The notes beneath the pieces were generated by a model. It ran no database searches and was not told where the DNA came from. It saw only the letters and a program-made list of their open reading frames with translations. Made by a program: the position numbers and the translations under genes. From a virus, in IMG/VR virus record IMGVR_UViG_3300008469_000011, positions 1-34,039 of that record: DNA of 34,039 bases. The stretch is one strand, 5' to 3'. Positions within the stretch are counted from its first letter, which is position 1, and every line of letters begins with the position of its first letter. Below, piece after piece: positions 3,584 to 31,595 of the stretch.

Positions 3584-3584
3584 C

Positions 3585-3609
3585 TAATAGAACCTTCAGG
3601 GTTCTATTA
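3585..3609 (+). terminator. Perfect 10-bp hairpin after the tail tube gene
   Basis: Bases 3585-3594 (TAATAGAACC) and 3600-3609 (GGTTCTATTA) are perfect reverse complements around a five-base loop TTCAG. The hairpin starts two bases after the tail tube stop codon. There is no run of T after it, so it may be a weak terminator, a processing site, or a 3' stabilising structure for the abundant tube mRNA rather than a full intrinsic terminator. Confidence 0.55.
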
Positions 3610-3632
3610 ACCATCTATTAACTTAATTTAGA

Positions 3633-3638
3633 TATAAT
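3633..3638 (+). promoter_or_regulatory. Candidate -10 box (TATAAT) for the chaperone/tape-measure operon
   Basis: A perfect TATAAT lies in the only sizeable gap of the left structural block, 10 bases before the long stem-loop at 3648-3723, so transcripts would start at about 3645. No good TTGACA is visible at the usual 16-18 base distance; the upstream stretch is AT-rich. An isolated -10 box in AT-rich DNA can occur by chance, so this is a candidate only. Confidence 0.4.
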
Positions 3639-3647
3639 CATCCAAAG

Positions 3648-3723
3648 AAGATTTAGTAGCGTGGGTGTAGACAGCCTCCTCTCTCCCATGCGTGTGTTTA
3701 TCACACCCATTCTACTAAGTCTT
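3648..3723 (+). promoter_or_regulatory. Long stem-loop with anti-Shine-Dalgarno loop in the leader of the chaperone gene
   Basis: Bases 3648-3668 pair with 3703-3723 over 21 positions: 18 Watson-Crick pairs, two G-U pairs and one C/T mismatch (3660/3711). The 34-base loop (3669-3702) contains GCCTCC at 3674-3679, followed by a further pyrimidine run. This hexamer is the exact complement of GGAGGC at 3750-3755, the ribosome binding site of the gene starting at 3764. A TATAAT box 10 bases upstream would put this element at the very 5' end of the transcript. It could therefore be a leader RNA that controls translation by pairing loop and ribosome binding site, or a 5' stabiliser. An alternative small hairpin (3692-3696 with 3702-3706) overlaps the 3' arm and could compete. 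There is no T-run, so a simple terminator is unlikely. Confidence 0.6.
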
Positions 3724-3763
3724 AGACTTAAAAATTTTAAATACCTTATGGAGGCACATACCA

Positions 3764-4186
3764 ATGGCACTTATTGTAACAACAGGAACACCAAAAGATG
3801 TATACACATATACACCAATTGCAGAACGAGAAGAAGAAAAACCTTTTAGCGTTGAATTTAGAAAGCTAACATTACGCCAACTAGCAAAGCTAGATGACTC
3901 TTTAGTTAGTGTAACTAGCCAAAACCAAGCTATGAGTTTTTCTCAAAAAACAAATGAGTTGGATATGCTAAAAGCAACAATTACTGATTGGGATAATGTA
4001 GAAGACGCTGATGGTAAAAACGTCAAGCTTAAAAAAAGTAAAGATGGTAACCTAACAGATGAATCTTTGCTTATGTTTGCACCATATCACACTGAAATTG
4101 CAAATGTGATTGCAAATGTTAGTAGAGACCCTTTCAATGCCGCACAGCATTTAGGGGAAGATGACCAAGAAGAGGTCACTGAATAA
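3764..4186 (+). CDS. Tail assembly chaperone, lambda gpG-like, first of two paralogues
   Basis: The 140-residue protein is small and acidic at the C-terminus (GEDDQEEVTE) and sits between the tube and tape measure genes, the place of lambda gpG-type chaperones that bind the tape measure before tube polymerisation. It resembles residues 20-125 of the next gene's product in the same order of landmarks: 'f.VEfR.Lt...L..L', then 'a.i..W.nved.DGk' (here DWDNVEDADGKN; there YWNIQDKDGND), then a helix ending in I..VS or I.RNS. The start is well supported by GGAGG at 3750-3754, nine bases before the ATG. That ribosome binding site is complementary to the loop of the upstream stem-loop. No slippery heptamer was seen near its end. 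Confidence 0.65.
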   Translation: MALIVTTGTPKDVYTYTPIAEREEEKPFSVEFRKLTLRQLAKLDDSLVSVTSQNQAMSFSQKTNELDMLKATITDWDNVEDADGKNVKLKKSKDGNLTDESLLMFAPYHTEIANVIANVSRDPFNAAQHLGEDDQEEVTE

Positions 4187-4206
4187 CTTAGTTTAGGGGG
4201 TTACTA

Positions 4207-4923
4207 ATGGACGTGGAGGCAACCCAACGGACATCTACTGTTTATAAAAACACTTACTTATTTACCCCAAAAGAAGATACAGGTTCTTTAACTCAATTTA
4301 CGGTTGAGTACAGAGCCTTATCCTACAAAGAGTTACTTTTTTTACGAAATAATTTTTTTAGTAAAAATATGCAACACTCAGCCAAACCATTTATCATAGA
4401 ATATGCAACCATAAGATACTGGAATATTCAAGATAAGGATGGCAACGATATAACCACAACCACAAAACTATTAGAAGTATTACCACAGGACTATGTAAAT
4501 TTGTTAGTTGAAGATATTTTAAGGAACTCTGTATTACCAGAAGGGTTCGGATATCAAGCCACTACAGGATTAGACCTAGCTATGGATGATAAATTTCAAT
4601 CAGATGATTGGGATTGCACAGAATGTCAACTAAGAAATTTACATAAGCAACGTAACTGCGGATACGTTGATAAAAAAGAATGGAGTGATAAATTTATGTT
4701 GGTAGTAGGTACTGAGACATTCTACGAGTGTCCTATGTACAGCTTAGACCACCAAATTATATCCGATATGTTTAAGACATACTCTATGTCAGAATTAGGT
4801 AATTTACCAGATACTGGAGGACTTTACGACCAAACAGAGTTTTTTGTTACTTCTGCTACTTTAGTACGGAATAAAGTAAAAGCTATGGAGAAAGAGGCAC
4901 ACGAAGAGATGACTAAAAAGTAG
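4207..4923 (+). CDS. Tail assembly chaperone with G-like N-terminus and T-like cysteine C-terminus
   Basis: The 238-residue protein repeats the fold-pattern of the preceding chaperone in residues about 20-125 (TQFTVEYRALSYKEL, YWNIQDKDGND, LVEDILRNS). It continues with a C-terminal domain absent from the first protein: DDWDCTECQLRNLHKQRNCG (about residues 137-156), a Cys-x2-Cys...Cys motif typical of T-type extensions, then a helical tail. This is the composition of a lambda gpGT fusion, but encoded as an independent gene with its own strong ribosome binding site (AGGGGG at 4195-4200) 20 bases after the first chaperone's stop. It probably binds the tape measure and tube subunits during tail assembly. 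A short hairpin overlaps its stop codon. Confidence 0.65.
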   Translation: MDVEATQRTSTVYKNTYLFTPKEDTGSLTQFTVEYRALSYKELLFLRNNFFSKNMQHSAKPFIIEYATIRYWNIQDKDGNDITTTTKLLEVLPQDYVNLLVEDILRNSVLPEGFGYQATTGLDLAMDDKFQSDDWDCTECQLRNLHKQRNCGYVDKKEWSDKFMLVVGTETFYECPMYSLDHQIISDMFKTYSMSELGNLPDTGGLYDQTEFFVTSATLVRNKVKAMEKEAHEEMTKK

Positions 4924-7900: not shown

Positions 7901-10900
7901 TCATTTAAGGTTGCCGTACTAGCTACCAATAAAGTTATGTCACTACATAATGTATATTTGGCTACATCCTTTGCGAGGGCTGTAGCCCTTTCGTCAGTAA
8001 TGAAAGTACTATCCGTTAGACTAGCTGCTGTATGGACTGCTATGTTAGCAAACCCTTTAGGTGTTGCAGTTGCTGGTATAGCTGCTATGACTGCTGGTGT
8101 CTACTTGTTAACTGAGGCTTTTGACGGACAACTTGAAACACTGGCAGATGTTCGTGATGCCTATGGTGATATTCAAGAATATCTAGATACTGCTCAGAAT
8201 AACAAAGGTATCTTTACAGCAGACCAACTAGGTGCTAGAATTAACAAGTTAGAAGAATACAAAAAGGTAGCTAAAGAAATTGTAGAAGATGAGCGAGGGT
8301 CTTACGCTGATAAGGTAGCTGCTCGTAAAGAGCTTAAAGCACTTACAGAACAGATAGATGCTACAAAGGTAAGTTTCACAAAACTTCAAGAAGAAGCTAG
8401 ACGTAATGAACTTGCTGCATCATTTAGTAAACAACAAAAACAAATTACAGACACAATTAAAGCACTTAATACACAAAAAGACTCCGCACTCTCTATTAAC
8501 CCAAGATTTGATAGTACAAAGCTAGATGCTATTATATCACAACTAAAAGCTAAACTTGCTGGTCTTAAAAAAGAACTAACAAACTCTTTAAATAACGCTC
8601 CTATAATAACCTCTAAAGATGATGTAGATGCTATGAAGGCATTTACTACAACATTGAATAACATAGCAAATAGTACCAGCTCAAGCTATGAAGCGGCTAT
8701 GCAGAAGTTTGACAGTGTAATGGAAGCTTTTAAAAGTAAATCTGAAGTTTTGTCTAAGGAACTACAACCAAGATTTAACAAGTTTACTGAGTTGTTAAAA
8801 GATACTAAATTTGACACAGCTTTAAAAGATAACCTTGAGGGGTTATTTGATTCCTTTAAATCTAATGATTTAGGTAAAATTGGCTTACAAGTAAGTGCCC
8901 TTAAGAAAGAGATAGAAGATTTAGCAAAAGCTAACCCCGAATGGAATCCTGATGCTGCTAACGGTGTAGTAAAGGCTATTGAGGAGCTACAAGCTGTCTA
9001 TGGTAACTTAGGTGCTACAGAAGCTGCTGTGAAGAAGAAAGCAGATTCCACTACTAAAGCTTATATTAAGGGTATTGCTGATAGAATAAAGCTCACTAAT
9101 GATTTAGCAGCAGCTAAGGCGTTAGCTGAAGGAAAAGACTATAAAGTTTCTACAGGTATCAAAGCACAACTTGATGCTTCCAGCCAAATTCTTAAGGACT
9201 TAAAAGAGAAGAAAGTTTCCCAAGATATTATAGATGCAGAACAGCTAAAAAACTATAAATTACAACACAGTTATGAGGTTGCTAAAACTTCAGAGAAAGA
9301 AAAGCAAGAAAATTTAGATAGAAGTATCAAGGTTTTACAAGACCAACTTACAGGCAAGACCAGCACCTCTGTTGAGTTAGCTAAAGTAAAACAGGAAACA
9401 ACCTCTAAGCAACTAAAAGGTATGCTAGACCTTAAAGATGCTTCATTAAGTGTACTTCAGATTTCTGAAATGGATAAAGATGAACTACTTTCAAAAATAA
9501 AAAGTGGTAACTCTTATCAAAAAGTCCTGAATATGATTAAGGATGCTTTAGCTGCTGAATTAGCTACCAATAAAGCTATAACCTCTGAGCAATCTAAATA
9601 TGCTGCATTAGACCAAAAACGCATTGAGCAACATACAGCTTATGTGGCGGCACAACAACAGTCGTTACAGGCTACTAAAGACCAGTATCAACAACTGCTT
9701 GCATTTTCAGAGGTAGAAAAACAACGTACAGATGCTCAAGTTGCTTATAGTAAAGCGGTTACAAAAGCAGCAACTGAACGTGATAAAGAGTTAGCTCGAA
9801 TAAAACAGAGAGAAGATGCAGTTGCGAAAAGTAATGCTGATGCAGAAGATAAAAATAAGTCCCTTGTAGAACTTACAAAACAGAAAAAAGAAGCCCAAGC
9901 ATTATATAATAAGCAATTGGCTGCATCTAGAAAGTTACTAGGTGAGAACCTAGCACGTGCTGATGAATTTTATAAACTTATGGAAACTGGGGCAGATTCA
10001 TTAACTAATGGTCTTGTTGATTTCTTTGATATTGGTTCAGCTGGTTGGATGGACTTTGGAAGTCTTGCTAAATCCACTATAGCGGATATATCCAAAGAAC
10101 TAATTAAGCTCAGTGTTACTGACCCTCTTAATAGTGCTATAAAAGGTCTTATTAGTGGAAACTCTACTATTTCTAACTTAGACCAAGCTGTAGCTGGTAA
10201 AGAATATACCAATAATGGTGATGGTACGTGGACTACAACCTCCAGTGTGCCCAATCTTGGCACTGGAGGTTCAGCAGCCTTAATTGGGGGTCTTAGTGCT
10301 GCTGGTTCTTACATGAACAACGGTAACGCTGGTCAAGCAATAGGAAGTGGTATCGGGACTGGTATAAGTACTTATGGAGCTATGTTATCAATGATAAATC
10401 CAGCTGTTGGTATTCCTATGGCTATTGGTGGTTCTTTGCTTGGTGGAGTGCTTGGTGATGCACTTGGTGGAAGCAAGGACACTACAACCCAAGACCAACT
10501 AAAAGCATTAAATGAGAAGGCAGATGCTCGTAACAAATACTTAGAAGCTGCTCAAACATTTTATGATGCTGCTGGTAAATTAGGTAGCTCATTTGTAACC
10601 GCATTCCAATCTTCAAAAGATGCGTTCAATACCACAATGCAAGCGTCCTTGATAGATAATGAAGCTCGCAGAATCAATGCAACTACAGGTGTGATGGAGG
10701 GAGAAAGATTAAACCCTGTTGACTTTGGAAGTGTAAGTAATGCTGTAAACTTTTTTATAGAAGGGTTACAAAGAACTTTAGATGGTGCTGATAGAGACTT
10801 TGCAAAAGTAACCTATAGCGTAAGTGAACTAGATCATGCTGTAACCGCATCTTCTGACTCAAGCAGAGAATTTGTATTAGCTTGGGAAGACCTTGATTCA

Positions 10901-13900
10901 TCAGGTAACCGCTCATTAAAAACACTAGGTGATGCAATTATAGAGCTTGGTTCTAATGCATATAAGACAACTTCTCAATTAATGGGAGTTATTGAAGATT
11001 ATCAAGGGATGTACGAGAAACTTTCTGGTGAAACAACATTTAGTGATAAAAAAGTTGTTGCTGCTAGAGATACTCTTGAAAGTAACGGTGTTATTGACTT
11101 CGGCTCTGCTAGTTCAGAGGCAAAACAACTAAGTGATATTCTGTATAGTATAGGTAATGCAGCTGATGCAAGTGGTGTAAATCTTGGAGAGCTATCTGAT
11201 AGGATTGAAGATAATTTAGATGCTGCTATAGCTGCAAACCCAGAGTTAAAAGACCTAGCGTATAACCAAGATGGTGCTGCCAAATCAATAGAGATACTTA
11301 GAGAAAAAGGTTTTGTTGGGTTAGCTAAAGACGTTTCCTTGCTGCAAACAGTAATGGGACAAACCATAGATACTACGGGCATGACATTTGAGGAGATATT
11401 AAACTTAAACTCTGAAATGAAAACTATGTCTGAGGTATATGCTACATCAAGAAAAAATGTAAAAGCATGGAATGAAGGGTTAAAATCATCAGATGACCTA
11501 ATGCTTGAAACAGCATCTCACTTAGGAGTATACGGAAGAACATCAGATGAAGCATTTCAACTACTAAAAGGTGGTGTAGATGGACTTACCGATGCAGAGT
11601 ACGATTACCTAGTTCAGCTGAAAGCAAGAGAAGATGCATCCAAAGCTAATATTAAAGCTTGGGAAGATAGGTTTAAATCACAAGATGATATATTAGCTGA
11701 TTCAGCAGATACTTTTGGTGTAGTAGGTAAAACATCATCAGAAGCATTTGACTTATTAAAAGGTGGTGTTGATGGACTTACAGATGCTGAGTATAATTAC
11801 CTAGATGCACTCAAAGTACATGAAGAGGTAGTAGCATCAGCAACAGCCTCATTTCTTGATTATGCAGAACAGATGAAAGGAACAGACTCTTATAACAGTT
11901 ATGTTAAAGACCAGCAAGCACAACTATATATTAACAAAATGGAATCAGCTGGTTATGAGATAGGTTCGGTTGCAGATGTTATTTCGGACTTCTCAAGCAT
12001 TAATGCAGAAGGATTATCAAAAATAGCATCTACTCTTGCTGAAGTTGGGTTAAGCCCTGAAGACATATCAGCACTACTACCTACTTTAAATGATACTGCA
12101 TCAAACACAGCAGATACAGTAAAAGCGGTATACGATACTTCTACGAACTGGAGTAACTACAGTTCAAACACAGCAAGTAATATCTCATCATACCGAGTAG
12201 ATTATGAGATGCAGAAAGAATTCAATGATAACATCAAAAAAGCATCTGAAAAACTTGGAATATCTATCGAAGATATGTCAAAAATGGACGCTAAATGGAT
12301 AGAAGAACTAAACACTGTATTTAAAGCTGTTGTTGATATACCTCAAAGTGTAGCAAACCAGATGAATCAAGGCATCACTTGGTATGACAATTCAGGCATA
12401 CTAAATGACTTTCTTAAAGACTTTAACTACACAAATTCATTATCAGGACTTCAAGAATATAGCCAAAAAGATTTTATGGATAAGTTCATAAAACAGATAA
12501 GTATGGGCTATGATAATAATGGTGCTGAGGAAGTAAGATACAAACTTAATACAGACGCATTTAATGAATGGCTAAAAAGTCTTAATCTTTCAATAGACCA
12601 ATTCGGAATAGATGGAGTACATAGCCTAGAAGACCTAAAAACACTCGGCAATGTTATTGGTTTAGATTTTAGTAGTTTATTAGATAAAACTACGGAGTCA
12701 GTAGATAAAACAAGTAAATCAATCTATGACTTTATGGTTACACAAGATGAAGCAAAAGATGCGTGGAAGGAATTAGGTTTAACAGGGGAAATTAGCACTT
12801 CTAAATTAGATGCACTCAAATCATCACTAGACGGTATTGAAGTGGATAGTGCAGAATATGATAAAGTAACTTCAGCAATATCAGAAATTGAAAAATACTT
12901 AGGTGGTATAGTTGATTTAACAGATAATTGGTTAAGCAGAAACGATACTACTTCTCAGTCAATAGATAAAATGGGCAATGACTTGGAGATAGAATCGGCA
13001 AGTAAGTTAAGTCTTGCACAACTTGAAGCTATAACACTTACTGACGGTTTAACACAAGCTGAGTATGATTTACTTTCCGCTAGAGAGGAACAAATAAAAG
13101 CATCTGAAAGTAACAAGAAGGCTTGGGAAGATACTATAAATCCTGAAGGTAGCTTTGGTAGATTGTTAGAATCTGTAGTTTCTGAAATGGCCGCTAATAG
13201 TGCTGGTGATACGGGGGGGTTATCTGAATATAGTGCGAATATGTCACTTGATGATTTATATAACTTACTAACTGCTGATGGAGAACTTACAGATGCTGAA
13301 TTAGCATTATTGAACGCTAGAAAAGAGCAAATAGATAAAACTAAAGAACTTCAAGATAAATTAGACATAGCTAAGTTGATGGATGATGAAGAAGGTATTT
13401 TAGCCGAGACTAGAAAACAAGCTTTAAAAGGATTGACTGAAGAACAAGCAGCTAAGCAAACAGAAATCTGGAAGTATCAAGATGCTTTAAAGGTTTTAAA
13501 TGAAAAGAAAGGCCTTCAAGACCAATTAAACAAATTAACACTTTCAGAGTCCGAGCTAAGAAAGATACAATTAGATAAGTTAGACGAGTCAAATAGAGAA
13601 ATTCAAACAAATATCTGGTTAGAAGAAGATAGACAAAAATCTCTTTCTAATATAAATTCTTGGTTAGACACTATAGATTTTGGAGGGTATGAAGGCTCTT
13701 TTAAAAGATTAGCTCAATCGTTAAACATGGGAGATGTTTCACCAAATATGTCACTAGATGACATGTATAAGGACTTTATGTCTGATGGAAAATTAACAGA
13801 TGCTGAACTTGCTTTACTAAAAGCTAGAAAACAACAGGTAGACGTAACTCAAGGACTTCAAGACCAACTAGACATAGCTAAGTTGATGGATGATGAAGAA

Positions 13901-19063: not shown

Positions 19064-19734
19064 TGAAAGATGAGTTAATCTATTGCTCTGACTTAGAGCA
19101 ACTAAAACAAGAGCTAAAAGATAATGGTATGGTAGATAGTGAAGGTAACTACACTCATGGTAATACTATGTCCCCTATCAAGACTAATGACTCTGGTGCT
19201 AGCTTGTATCTTGTAAGAGATAATAAGCTTGATATGAGTCTGTTTCCATCACTCACAAGTCTAGGGAGCTATGAAGAGATGTTTTCTGATGAGACTAAAC
19301 ATAACTTATACAAGAGCGTATATCCCTATGATGTACCTGTAGAATACACAGATGAAAATGGTGACATTCAAACATATATGAGACCTCAGAAATTTGCTGA
19401 GTTTTCACCTATTCCAAGAGAATATAAAAAGAAAAAGGTGCGTGAAGCTATACGAGAGTTTAAAGACATTGAGGATGACTTAACAGACTTAAAAAAAGTG
19501 GTTCAGTTTATGGCTAGAGGTTTTGCTGGTATTTGGGCTACAACTCCTCAAGAGATGAAAGATGCAAACCCATACAAAGATAACTTTGACCTGTTTACTC
19601 AATCTATTCTCAATACACAAATGAGACTAGATTTAGAAGTAGACCAAACAGCCAAGATAGCTAAGATACTCAATGATGAGAAGTTTATAGCTCAAATTCT
19701 TGTGGATACTGGGTATACACCTGAGGTAGTGTGA
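19063..19734 (+). CDS. Unknown protein coupled to the receptor-binding gene
   Basis: The 223-residue protein is encoded directly after the fibre gene (TAATG overlap, AGGAGG at 19052-19057), a position often held by fibre assembly factors or secondary fibres. The N-terminal half is mixed alpha/beta with EYTDENGDIQTYMRPQKFA at about residues 95-113. The C-terminal half is helical and highly charged (PREYKKKKVREAIREFKDIE, then a long helix with DLTDLKKVVQFMARGFAG, and a final helix near residues 195-215). No signal peptide, membrane span or catalytic motif is seen. I do not recognise a family; a chaperone for the fibre is only a guess from context. Confidence 0.6.
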   Translation: MKDELIYCSDLEQLKQELKDNGMVDSEGNYTHGNTMSPIKTNDSGASLYLVRDNKLDMSLFPSLTSLGSYEEMFSDETKHNLYKSVYPYDVPVEYTDENGDIQTYMRPQKFAEFSPIPREYKKKKVREAIREFKDIEDDLTDLKKVVQFMARGFAGIWATTPQEMKDANPYKDNFDLFTQSILNTQMRLDLEVDQTAKIAKILNDEKFIAQILVDTGYTPEVV

Positions 19735-20375
19735 TGAAGCTCATTAAAGATTTAGGAGTTATCAAATTTCCTGAAAATGGAAAAACAAGATGCAGGGTAG
19801 GTATCTACGAATGTCCTGATTGCAATAGTCATATTAAAGTACGGACTGCTCATGTAAAAGCAGGAAATACTAAAAAATGTAGGTCATGTAGTACGAAAAA
19901 ACATGGACAATATGGCACTCGCTTATACAATATATGGGATCAGATGAAACAACGGTGTCTTAACAGTAATAAGCCTGAATATGGTTACTATGGAGCAAAA
20001 GGGGTCACTGTTGCAGATGAATGGATAGATTTTGTAGGCTTCCAAGAATGGGCTTTAAATTCTGGATATACAGATGAATTAACTATCGATAGGATTGATA
20101 GTGATAAAGGTTATTCGCCTGATAATTGTAGATGGGCGGATTTGTATACGCAAGCCGCCAACAAATCTATAAAAAGTAATAATACATCTGGGAACACAGG
20201 AGTTTACTATAAAGAAGATAAAGAAAAATGGGAGTCAAGAGTTGGTTGGAAAAATAAAATAAATATTTTAGGACATTTTGACACCAAAGAAGATGCAATA
20301 CTGGCTAGAGACAAGTTTATACATATTTATAACATGCCTCATCCTATTGTATATCAAGATAGATTTGGAGCATAA
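19734..20375 (+). CDS. HNH homing endonuclease with zinc ribbon and AP2 domain
   Basis: The protein (213 residues from this ATG; a GTG one codon earlier, at 19731, is also possible) has three recognisable parts. An N-terminal zinc ribbon has CPDC at about residues 27-30 and CRSC at about 49-52. The HNH nuclease core is 'W..MkqRClN......YYGAKGVTVADEW..F..F..WALNSGY....TIDRID.DKGYSPDNCRWAD....A.NK', the classic phage HNH pattern with its DRID..KGYSPDNCRW signature at about 112-130. A C-terminal AP2-like DNA-binding segment has TGVYYKEDKEKWESRV and a following 'lG.FdTkEdAilArdkf'. Genes of this type are free-standing mobile elements that cut cognate intronless or empty sites. It overlaps the upstream gene's stop (TGATG) and lies two bases before the DUF1353 gene, so it is inserted cleanly between host phage genes. 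Confidence 0.85.
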   Translation: MKLIKDLGVIKFPENGKTRCRVGIYECPDCNSHIKVRTAHVKAGNTKKCRSCSTKKHGQYGTRLYNIWDQMKQRCLNSNKPEYGYYGAKGVTVADEWIDFVGFQEWALNSGYTDELTIDRIDSDKGYSPDNCRWADLYTQAANKSIKSNNTSGNTGVYYKEDKEKWESRVGWKNKINILGHFDTKEDAILARDKFIHIYNMPHPIVYQDRFGA

Positions 20376-28476: not shown

Positions 28477-28487
28477 GTTTATCATCT

Positions 28488-28497
28488 GTTTAAGGTA
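28488..28497 (+). repeat. Copy 3 of the intergenic decamer (GTTTAAGGTA)
   Basis: It matches nine of ten bases of the copies at 22414 and 26927 and lies 21 bases upstream of a TATAAT. A partial duplicate, GTTTAAG, is at 28471-28477 across the preceding stop codon. Confidence 0.35.
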
Positions 28498-28517
28498 AAA
28501 TACTGCTTGTAGTAGTG

Positions 28518-28523
28518 TATAAT
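28518..28523 (+). promoter_or_regulatory. Candidate -10 box (TATAAT) before the 28583-30249 gene block
   Basis: A perfect TATAAT, with TG directly before it, lies in the 106-base gap 28477-28582. No good -35 hexamer is seen at normal spacing; the repeated decamer ends 20 bases upstream. A start near 28530 would put the UUCG hairpin (28537-28556) at the 5' end of the transcript, the same order as at 3633-3723. Confidence 0.4.
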
Positions 28524-28536
28524 GCAGAAATTTATA

Positions 28537-28556
28537 AGGCTCTCTTCGGAGGGTCT
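28537..28556 (+). terminator. Hairpin with UUCG tetraloop
   Basis: Bases 28537-28544 (AGGCTCTC) pair with 28549-28556 (GAGGGTCT) around TTCG, closed by a C-G pair, the extra-stable cUUCGg loop. There are six Watson-Crick and two G-U pairs. It may terminate transcription of the 482-residue gene, although the following TACTTAAATTTAA is only weakly T-rich, or it may stabilise a leader RNA started at the TATAAT just upstream. Confidence 0.5.
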
Positions 28557-28582
28557 ACTTAAATTTAATAAAGGAGTAGTAT

Positions 28583-28897: not shown

Positions 28898-29732
28898 TAG
28901 TATAGATGGGGAGAACCGTTTAATTTATTTACATTCTGATACTGTAAATGCTTCTGTACATCCTTTAGAGATATATAAAGATGTCAGAAGATTACGTAAA
29001 GAACAGGAAGAATTACGAAAGTATACTAATTTTATGAAGGGGGATGGTAATATCTCTAAAGGTGGTGGTAAGTATACCGAAAGATACTTCACGTTACTGG
29101 AGGGTGCTAGGATAGTGCCCTATGATATAAGCCACGTTTTATCTATTACAGGTACTATTATTACAGATGATGGTAAAGAGGGTGTGTATTGTTTCAACAG
29201 AGCACCATTAACCGCTGGGGTACAGGTAGATATTCAATACATCCCACCACAGGTAGAGGTGATAGTTGCTGAAAGTAGTTACGGTGGTGGTACTACAGCA
29301 CAGGCTATTTGGGAGTACCAAGATAGAACCTTGTCCAATAATGTAACTATTGATAACGATATGATACACGATGCTCTTAATACTTATGATAGTAAAGATG
29401 AGTGGAAAGCAGATACTACAGGTCTTGCCACCTCTAATGATATTATGCAAGTAACTATTGAAGACAGCACAATACATCAAGCTCTTAATACTTACGACAG
29501 TAAAGATGAGTGGAAGGCAGATATCACGGGTCTTGCCACAGGTGACCAAGTGACACAAGCAGTCACTGATATTAACCAAAGTATAACAGATGCCCAATTA
29601 GGTAATTGGGAACTTATAGGTAATCAGTTAATCATTAAAGGTACTAATGACCAAGAAATAGCTAGGTTTAACTTATTTGATGCTGCTGGTAATCCTACCA
29701 TGAGAGCTGTGTACAAAAGGGAGAGAGTATGA
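28884..29732 (+). CDS. Probable structural/fibre protein with a 36-residue tandem repeat
   Basis: I place the start at ATG 28884 because GGGGAGG (28868-28874) lies nine bases upstream; the in-frame ATGs at 28851 and 28875 are poorly spaced from it. The product is 282 residues. The N-terminal part has PVVSSIDGENRLIYLHSD and a helix, 'VRRLRKEQEELRKYTNFM', followed by a beta domain with ISHVLSITGTIITDDG and VQVDIQYIPPQVEV. Two 36-residue repeats follow, each with ALNTYDSKDEWKAD and TGLAT, then a helix and a C-terminal FNLFDAAGNPTMRAVYKRER motif. This C-terminal pattern ('i.r..L.d..G.pt...v..R') is frequent in phage proteins of unknown role encoded with Ig-like partners. It overlaps the next gene by four bases. 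Confidence 0.6.
   Translation: MPVVSSIDGENRLIYLHSDTVNASVHPLEIYKDVRRLRKEQEELRKYTNFMKGDGNISKGGGKYTERYFTLLEGARIVPYDISHVLSITGTIITDDGKEGVYCFNRAPLTAGVQVDIQYIPPQVEVIVAESSYGGGTTAQAIWEYQDRTLSNNVTIDNDMIHDALNTYDSKDEWKADTTGLATSNDIMQVTIEDSTIHQALNTYDSKDEWKADITGLATGDQVTQAVTDINQSITDAQLGNWELIGNQLIIKGTNDQEIARFNLFDAAGNPTMRAVYKRERV
29371..29545 (+). repeat. 108-base tandem repeat within the structural gene
   Basis: Units of 36 codons begin near 29374 and 29482. Both encode ALNTYDSKDEWKAD...TGLAT, and their DNA differs mostly at silent positions, for example TATGATAGT versus TACGACAGT. Confidence 0.7.
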
Positions 29733-30250: not shown

Positions 30251-30313
30251 ATGCAAGAGTCTTATGGGCAACAATTCATAAACCATTGGATTGCTACACA
30301 ACAGAATAAATAG
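30251..30313 (+). CDS. Possible 20-residue peptide ORF before the convergent terminator
   Basis: An ATG one base after the preceding stop opens a 20-codon frame (MQESYGQQFINHWIATQQNK) ending at TAG 30311-30313, three bases before the hairpin. It has no visible ribosome binding site of its own and could only be made by coupling. It may be chance. Confidence 0.25.
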   Translation: MQESYGQQFINHWIATQQNK

Positions 30314-30315
30314 AC

Positions 30316-30335
30316 GAAGACCTCTAGGGGTCTTC
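30316..30335. terminator. Bidirectional terminator between convergent late and early gene blocks
   Basis: GAAGACC (30316-30322) and GGTCTTC (30329-30335) form a perfect 7-bp stem, extendable by one T-G pair, around CTAG. It lies between the ends of the plus-strand gene at 30249 and the minus-strand gene at 30342. The flanks on both sides are AT-rich (CTACTATTTA to the right, TCTATTTATT on the minus strand), so it can act in both directions. Confidence 0.65.
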
Positions 30336-30341
30336 TACTAT

Positions 30342-31595
30342 TTACTCGTTAAGATTAACGAATTTAACGTCCTCTATATCACCATTGGTATTAACCATGA
30401 ATATAGTTTGGATAGCATCTATTGAACGCATACCAGAGTTTAAACCATACTCATTAGAACCAACCATAGTTCCATTTTGGATACTTAAACCACCATACTG
30501 ATTTGATGCAAGCATAGCCTGATGCTGATGACCATTAACGGAGTGTTTATAACTATCACCAAACACTTGACCACATAAGTCTTGTACATGTGAACGAGCA
30601 GTTGCTGAATGTACTTTAAATGACCGTACAGTATCTCCATGAAACGCTAAGATATTGGCAGAGTTTATGTCTATTAAATGATACCCAGAGTCTGTAGTGT
30701 GTATAGTAACATTATCAACACCAGCAGAGTCTAGTAGCATCATTAAGAGTTCATCTATCATCCTAGAGTAGTCTGCTTCTTTGTTACGCATTACTGGTTT
30801 TTCATAAATCCTAGAGTGATTATCTCCCGTAGAGTAAACGTCTATGTGTGTATAAACTTGTGATAAAGTGGTGAAAAACTTTAATTGTATTTGCACAGCT
30901 CTACGAATAGACTCTACAAATGATGTTTCACTTTCAATTATACCATTATGTATAATACCTCTAAGTGTATCTTTTAAATCTATAATTGTTAGGTTGTCTG
31001 ATTGCAACTGATAGTTCATAATACTATCACAAAATCTATCTAATCTTGCTTCAGCAATATCGTAGTTGTAGGTATTATTAGGTACTGAGTTCTCTGTAAC
31101 AACTTCACCGAAGTGCATGTCCCCTATGGTAGCTACAAGACCATCTTCAGATACTCTTTCAATCCCCTCAACCTCAATAACAGTAGGTAACTCCAAGTCC
31201 CAACCATCAAGTGCACTATTTAAAGTTTCTTCTAGGGTCTCAAAGTATTTATCTTCTCTTGCACTCTCTCTGACACTTTTACGTAGCACAAGTAGCTCAT
31301 CTCTTGCGTGTTGTAAGCTTTTGGATAGTTTGGTGACCTTACGCTGTAGCACGTCATTAGTATCTGCATCAACGTCTTTAGATTCCATTCTGCTACGTAG
31401 GACAGCTAAGTCTGAAGCTCTGTACTTATTAGCTAATCTTAGGTTCAGTTGGCTACACGTAGTTCTTACGGTGGTTGTAGTACAATCTAGCTGCTTTGCA
31501 ATACTTCTTGTATTAACACCATCTTCATACAACTCTATAAGTCGTGACACATCAATGTTTTTATCTCTATGTATTCTGTTAATTACTTCCATCAT
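30342..31595 (-). CDS. Helix-turn-helix / calcineurin-like metallophosphoesterase fusion
   Basis: The 417-residue protein has an N-terminal resolvase-like helix-turn-helix (residues about 15-50: LIELYEDGVNTRSIAKQLDC, then TTTTVRTTCSQL) and a coiled coil (about 80-115). A metallophosphoesterase domain follows from about 152: GDMHFG at 158-163 (motif I, D159 and H161), KDTLRG at 208-213 in place of the usual GD..DRG, GDNH at 257-260 (motif III, with N259-H260), HGD at 319-321 and GHQH at 355-358. The metal ligands of a two-metal phosphoesterase are therefore mostly present. The likely activity is nuclease or phosphodiesterase on nucleic acids or nucleotides. The helix-turn-helix suggests DNA targeting. 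It overlaps the upstream gene by four bases (ATGA) and is last in the minus-strand operon. Confidence 0.75.
   Translation of the reverse strand: MMEVINRIHRDKNIDVSRLIELYEDGVNTRSIAKQLDCTTTTVRTTCSQLNLRLANKYRASDLAVLRSRMESKDVDADTNDVLQRKVTKLSKSLQHARDELLVLRKSVRESAREDKYFETLEETLNSALDGWDLELPTVIEVEGIERVSEDGLVATIGDMHFGEVVTENSVPNNTYNYDIAEARLDRFCDSIMNYQLQSDNLTIIDLKDTLRGIIHNGIIESETSFVESIRRAVQIQLKFFTTLSQVYTHIDVYSTGDNHSRIYEKPVMRNKEADYSRMIDELLMMLLDSAGVDNVTIHTTDSGYHLIDINSANILAFHGDTVRSFKVHSATARSHVQDLCGQVFGDSYKHSVNGHQHQAMLASNQYGGLSIQNGTMVGSNEYGLNSGMRSIDAIQTIFMVNTNGDIEDVKFVNLNE

Follow-up and report, generated by a model that had tools for sequence, protein, structure and literature searches.

Separation of the tail tube gene from the tail chaperone gene by a hairpin or terminator is known. 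In phage SPP1, a predicted terminator (11,255-11,304) lies between the tube gene 17.1* (stop at 11,279) and the chaperone gene 17.5 (start at 11,363) (PMC6316719). In Corndog, a stem-loop is located to the right of the major tail gene, where a 12-bp stem followed by TTTCT was read as a terminator (PMC4351075). The Listeria phage CKA15, a myophage with mapped transcript ends, has a termination site after the tube gene, and its chaperone gene belongs to a separate unit that has a start and a stop of its own (PMC12282133). On the strength of these three reports, it is already known that tube and chaperone are transcribed apart at this boundary. Here we analyzed a linear virus record of 34,039 bases (IMGVR_UViG_3300008469_000011), hereafter the window, which adds another example with an unusually long stem. 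The window resembles SPP1 in having hairpins between the tube and chaperone genes, but these lack the T-run of the predicted intrinsic terminator (PMC6316719); it resembles Corndog in having a stem-loop just 3' of the tube gene, but without the run of T residues that follows the Corndog stem (PMC4351075). The likeness to CKA15, where the ends are mapped, lies in the separation of tube and chaperone genes at the transcript level, which for the phage of the window is a prediction (PMC12282133). We consider it probable that the gap at 3584-3763 is a zone of RNA punctuation acting in cis, which sets the expression of the tube apart from that of the chaperone.

This gap spans 180 nt and is the longest among the + strand genes. 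Two stable hairpins, H1 and H2, lie within 3585-3723, after the tube stop codon and before the next tail gene (Table 1). H1, a hairpin of 10-11 bp, was overlooked in the initial annotation. Homologues of the 140-aa protein encoded after the gap occupy the same position in the three related records described below (L002, L004 and L007), and an AlphaFold model of the protein is unusable (mean pLDDT 39). A programmed frameshift linking the two genes in chaperone position is unsupported: the second gene's frame contains a stop at 4189. HNH-type endonuclease genes are located at 2-916 and 19731-20375, within or beside the tail module.

Table 1. Positions of genes and sequence elements at the tube-chaperone boundary of the window
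Feature	Coordinates	Strand	Basis or remark
Tail tube protein gene, 341 aa	2558..3583	+	PF18906 Phage_tube_2, E 8.9e-20; phrog_290
Short hairpin H1, about -12 kcal/mol	3585..3608	+	Predicted fold; directly after tube stop codon
TATAAT, possible -10 element	3633..3638	+	No -35; no predicted promoter here
H2 5' arm	3648..3668	+	Sequence, fold, stem scan
H2 apical part	3669..3702	+	5 more pairs, 3-nt bulge, ~21-nt loop
H2 3' arm	3703..3723	+	No U-tract downstream
GGAGGC, Shine-Dalgarno (SD) of next gene	3750..3755	+	Sequence
140-aa protein in tail-chaperone position	3764..4186	+	Gene order only; no family match
238-aa second protein between tube and tape measure, Cys pairs	4207..4923	+	Function from gene order only
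Tape measure protein gene, 3783 aa	4955..16306	+	PF10145, E 3e-21

The stem of H2 is real and unusually long. Its arms, AAGATTTAGTAGCGTGGGTGT (3648-3668) and ACACCCATTCTACTAAGTCTT (3703-3723), form 18 Watson-Crick pairs, two G-U pairs and one C-U mismatch, exactly the counts given for this 21-position stem in the initial annotation. The 34-base loop described there does contain GCCTCC at 3674-3679, but the predicted fold adds five pairs (3669-3673 with 3695-3699) followed by a 3-nt bulge, which brings the single-stranded part nearer to 21 nt; a pyrimidine run, CCTCCTCTCTCCC (3675-3687), is found inside this loop. The minimum free energy of 3648-3723 is -28.6 kcal/mol on the + strand versus -25.9 on the complement, the transcribed strand being the more stable because of the G-U pairs. 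The earlier judgment that so long a stem is improbable by chance is borne out by simulation: H2 is the top ungapped stem of the window (score 40.0, runner-up 29.0), and an equally good stem was reached in one of 200 simulated 34-kb sequences generated from a first-order Markov model of the whole window. Folding of 3633-3790 has a z-score of -2.5, with two of 200 shuffles equally stable. Lower folding energies do occur in some other 90-nt stretches of the window, many of which lie near 10.2 kb within the tape measure gene, so H2 is exceptional as a single long hairpin and not as the lowest energy. That part of the tape measure gene includes a GC-rich 12-bp inverted repeat, AACCTCCAGTGT / GCACTGGAGGTT, at 10237-10271, and it is in the surroundings of this repeat that folding energies reach their minimum for the window. 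The Rfam 15 covariance models gave no match to 3584-3763 up to E = 5, and no tRNA or tmRNA was detected.

Signals of transcription around the hairpins are partial. The TATAAT proposed as the start of a leader transcript is present upstream of H2, but is accompanied neither by a -35 hexamer at 16-18 nt spacing nor by an extended -10 element, since AGA precedes it and not TGn; the motif occurs 20 times on the + strand of the window. A late phage promoter of another type at this position is possible. The sequence GATATAAT, common to the gap of the window and that of L007, was rejected as a conserved promoter: the window has three + strand sites, and its occurrence in the tube-chaperone gap of L007 is too little for a call of conservation. 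Neither hairpin is followed by a U-tract (AACCATCTATTAAC follows H1 and AGACTTAAAAATTTT follows H2), and no + strand terminator is predicted at either place. Lacking the U-tract, H1 and H2 are by definition not intrinsic (Rho-independent) terminators, and this class is ruled out for both. Elsewhere in the window, the + strand gap at 28477-28582 has elements in the same order as 3584-3763, namely TATAAT (28518), the hairpin GGCTCTC-TTCG-GAGGGTC and an SD, and a strong hairpin between convergent gene blocks at 30304-30347 is a likely two-way terminator.

Relatives were sought in IMG/VR (with the tube, chaperone and second chaperone proteins), by one profile search of genome contigs, and by tblastn and blastn in INPHARED. 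The relatives found in these collections were limited to L002 and a nearly identical pair, L004 and L007, at 27-40% protein identity; close relatives were found in none of the three. L004 (JAOZSC010000175.1), a contig of 6 kb assigned to a Desulfobacterales MAG, matches a phage contig of IMG/VR almost completely, and we regard it as phage DNA on that ground. All three records have the gene order of the window, with identities to it of 32-40% in the tube and 35-38% in the chaperone. The tube-chaperone gap of L002 is 25 nt long and has no hairpin. In L004 and L007 the gap measures 94 nt, and the tube stop is immediately followed by TGGAGGGGGTTCCCCCTCCA, a different hairpin with a short loop, in which CCTCC is found within the stem and not in the loop. 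A hairpin homologous to H2 is thus present in none of these distant relatives, and the H2 stem pattern has no match elsewhere in IMG/VR. Pairing between loop and SD, for which the initial annotation proposed a comparison of related phages, is seen neither in L002 nor in L004/L007, all of them distant. Absence from relatives at only 32-40% protein identity is no refutation of a function in the phage of the window.

Hairpins after the tube gene were also surveyed in the phylum of the L004 record, by a search for PF18906 tube genes in 395 genomes of Desulfobacterota. We scored the 110 nt following the tube stop at 29 other loci and compared them with 30 in-gene controls, with 100 shuffles each; the window itself was scored over 170 nt, and its gap appears there as 77 nt instead of the true 180 nt because a spurious ORF was called at 3661. 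At these loci, which are partly related to each other and in a minority of which the gene after the tube is identified, a stem reached by at most five of 100 shuffles is found in 10 of 29 versus 1 of 30 controls, and one reached by at most two of 100 shuffles in 6 of 29 versus 1 of 30. Three of the loci (L014, L017 and L018) have their next same-strand ORF more than 170 nt away and may be operon ends. The hairpin sequences vary between groups and the loops are mostly 3-8 nt long; H2 has a longer stem and a larger loop than the survey hairpins, and none of the 10 loci with a strong stem (at most five of 100 shuffles) has CCTCC in the loop. Five related loci (L015, L016, L021, L022 and L025) have alignable hairpins in which, by eye, both partners of some pairs are changed. 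In Desulfobacterota genomes, strong hairpins are thus found repeatedly just behind tube genes, with sequences that vary.

The initial annotation read the stem-loop as the leader of a transcript starting just upstream, with the CCUCC loop pairing with the chaperone SD and thereby regulating translation. Such pairing would form an H-type pseudoknot and might repress the chaperone. GCCTCC (3674-3679) is indeed a perfect complement of GGAGGC, CCTCC occurs in only 0.5% of transcribed-strand 34-mers, so that a loop with an anti-SD is in itself unusual, and the 26-nt linker between stem and SD would be long enough to span the stem. The complement, however, extends over 6 nt only: approximately 7% of transcribed-strand 34-mers match the 19-nt ribosome binding site region over at least 6 nt, and 10% pair with the 57 nt downstream as well as the loop does. 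Predicted pairing of the loop with its own SD (-13.1 kcal/mol) is surpassed by that with the SDs at 29729 (-19.0), 16540 (-16.5), 29938 (-15.2), 16307 (-14.3) and 19063 (-14.0), and in the nested ensemble the SD of the chaperone-position gene is already partly paired locally, whether the hairpin is present or not. A C-rich loop can be expected to match many SDs in this way. Together with the missing -35 element and the absence of the pairing from L002 and L004/L007, these results make the pseudoknot leader unlikely. A stable RNA stem-loop does stand in the gap before the chaperone-position gene, as had been claimed, but control of chaperone translation through its loop does not follow from a match so short and generic, and the timing of tail initiation ascribed to it is likewise unsupported; loop-SD pairing in this phage is possible but unsupported. 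A comparable arrangement is known from the anti-SD hairpins of Helicobacter aapA toxin mRNAs, in which an anti-SD and the SD of one message are able to pair; there the pairing was shown by mutation and probing, whereas the window offers a 6-nt complement in a loop (PMC6733600).

Action in trans fares worse. A small RNA with the CCUCCU loop as an anti-SD mimic, directed at other phage or host messages, draws on the CCTCCT and CTCCC present in the loop and on its predicted pairing with several SDs of the window (-14 to -19 kcal/mol), but there is no terminator downstream to release such an RNA, the stem pattern is found in no IMG/VR relatives, and C-rich loops would generally show pairing of this kind. 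We regard it as extremely improbable, and the trans role earlier suggested for the loop is unsupported. Very improbable, too, is a combined function in which the loop mimics the 16S anti-Shine-Dalgarno sequence, pairing in cis with the SD of the chaperone and in trans with further GGAGGC-type SDs that the phage carries, so as to set the ratio of tail proteins late in infection. The inverted repeat might instead work as DNA, as a protein-binding or recombination site, its RNA form being incidental. A 21-bp inverted repeat in a non-coding gap would suit such a site, but the two G-U pairs suit only the + strand RNA, and within the window each arm has no match but the other arm. A spacer of 34 nt is also long for an operator, and a DNA site seems quite unlikely.

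Punctuation of the late message in cis accommodates more of these observations. H2 ranks first among the simple stems of the window and is located in its longest + strand gap; hairpins are found at the same position in survey loci, in L004/L007, in SPP1 and in Corndog, and the transcript ends of CKA15 fall at the same boundary. Counting against it are the missing U-tracts, the L002 gap without a hairpin, the kinship and possible operon ends among the survey loci, and the stem length and loop size by which H2 exceeds the survey hairpins. H1 and H2 would act in cis on the late mRNA, and the zone would divide the tube gene from the tail-assembly genes; each virion takes up very many copies of the tube protein, while few are required of the assembly products. 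With its length of about two helical turns, the stem would suit RNase III-type processing or a role as a stability barrier. The 21-25 bp stem of H2 would most likely be such a processing or stability barrier, so that tube and chaperone messages would differ in abundance: it may be an RNase III-like site, or it may guard the 3' end of the tube mRNA or the 5' end of a chaperone mRNA starting near 3645. We infer that H1 and H2 are transcribed, that they undergo processing or protect the message, and that chaperone expression is lowered relative to that of the tube. H2 is most likely a mark of a message boundary rather than a new RNA switch.

Long-tailed phages need many tube subunits and few chaperones from adjacent genes. 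The occurrence of hairpins of unrelated sequence after the tube gene suggests that different phages set the ratio of tube to chaperone in a similar way, and the window provides one strong and testable case of a hairpin at this boundary. Pairing between the H2 loop and the SD, if true, would add translational control to the tube-chaperone boundary.
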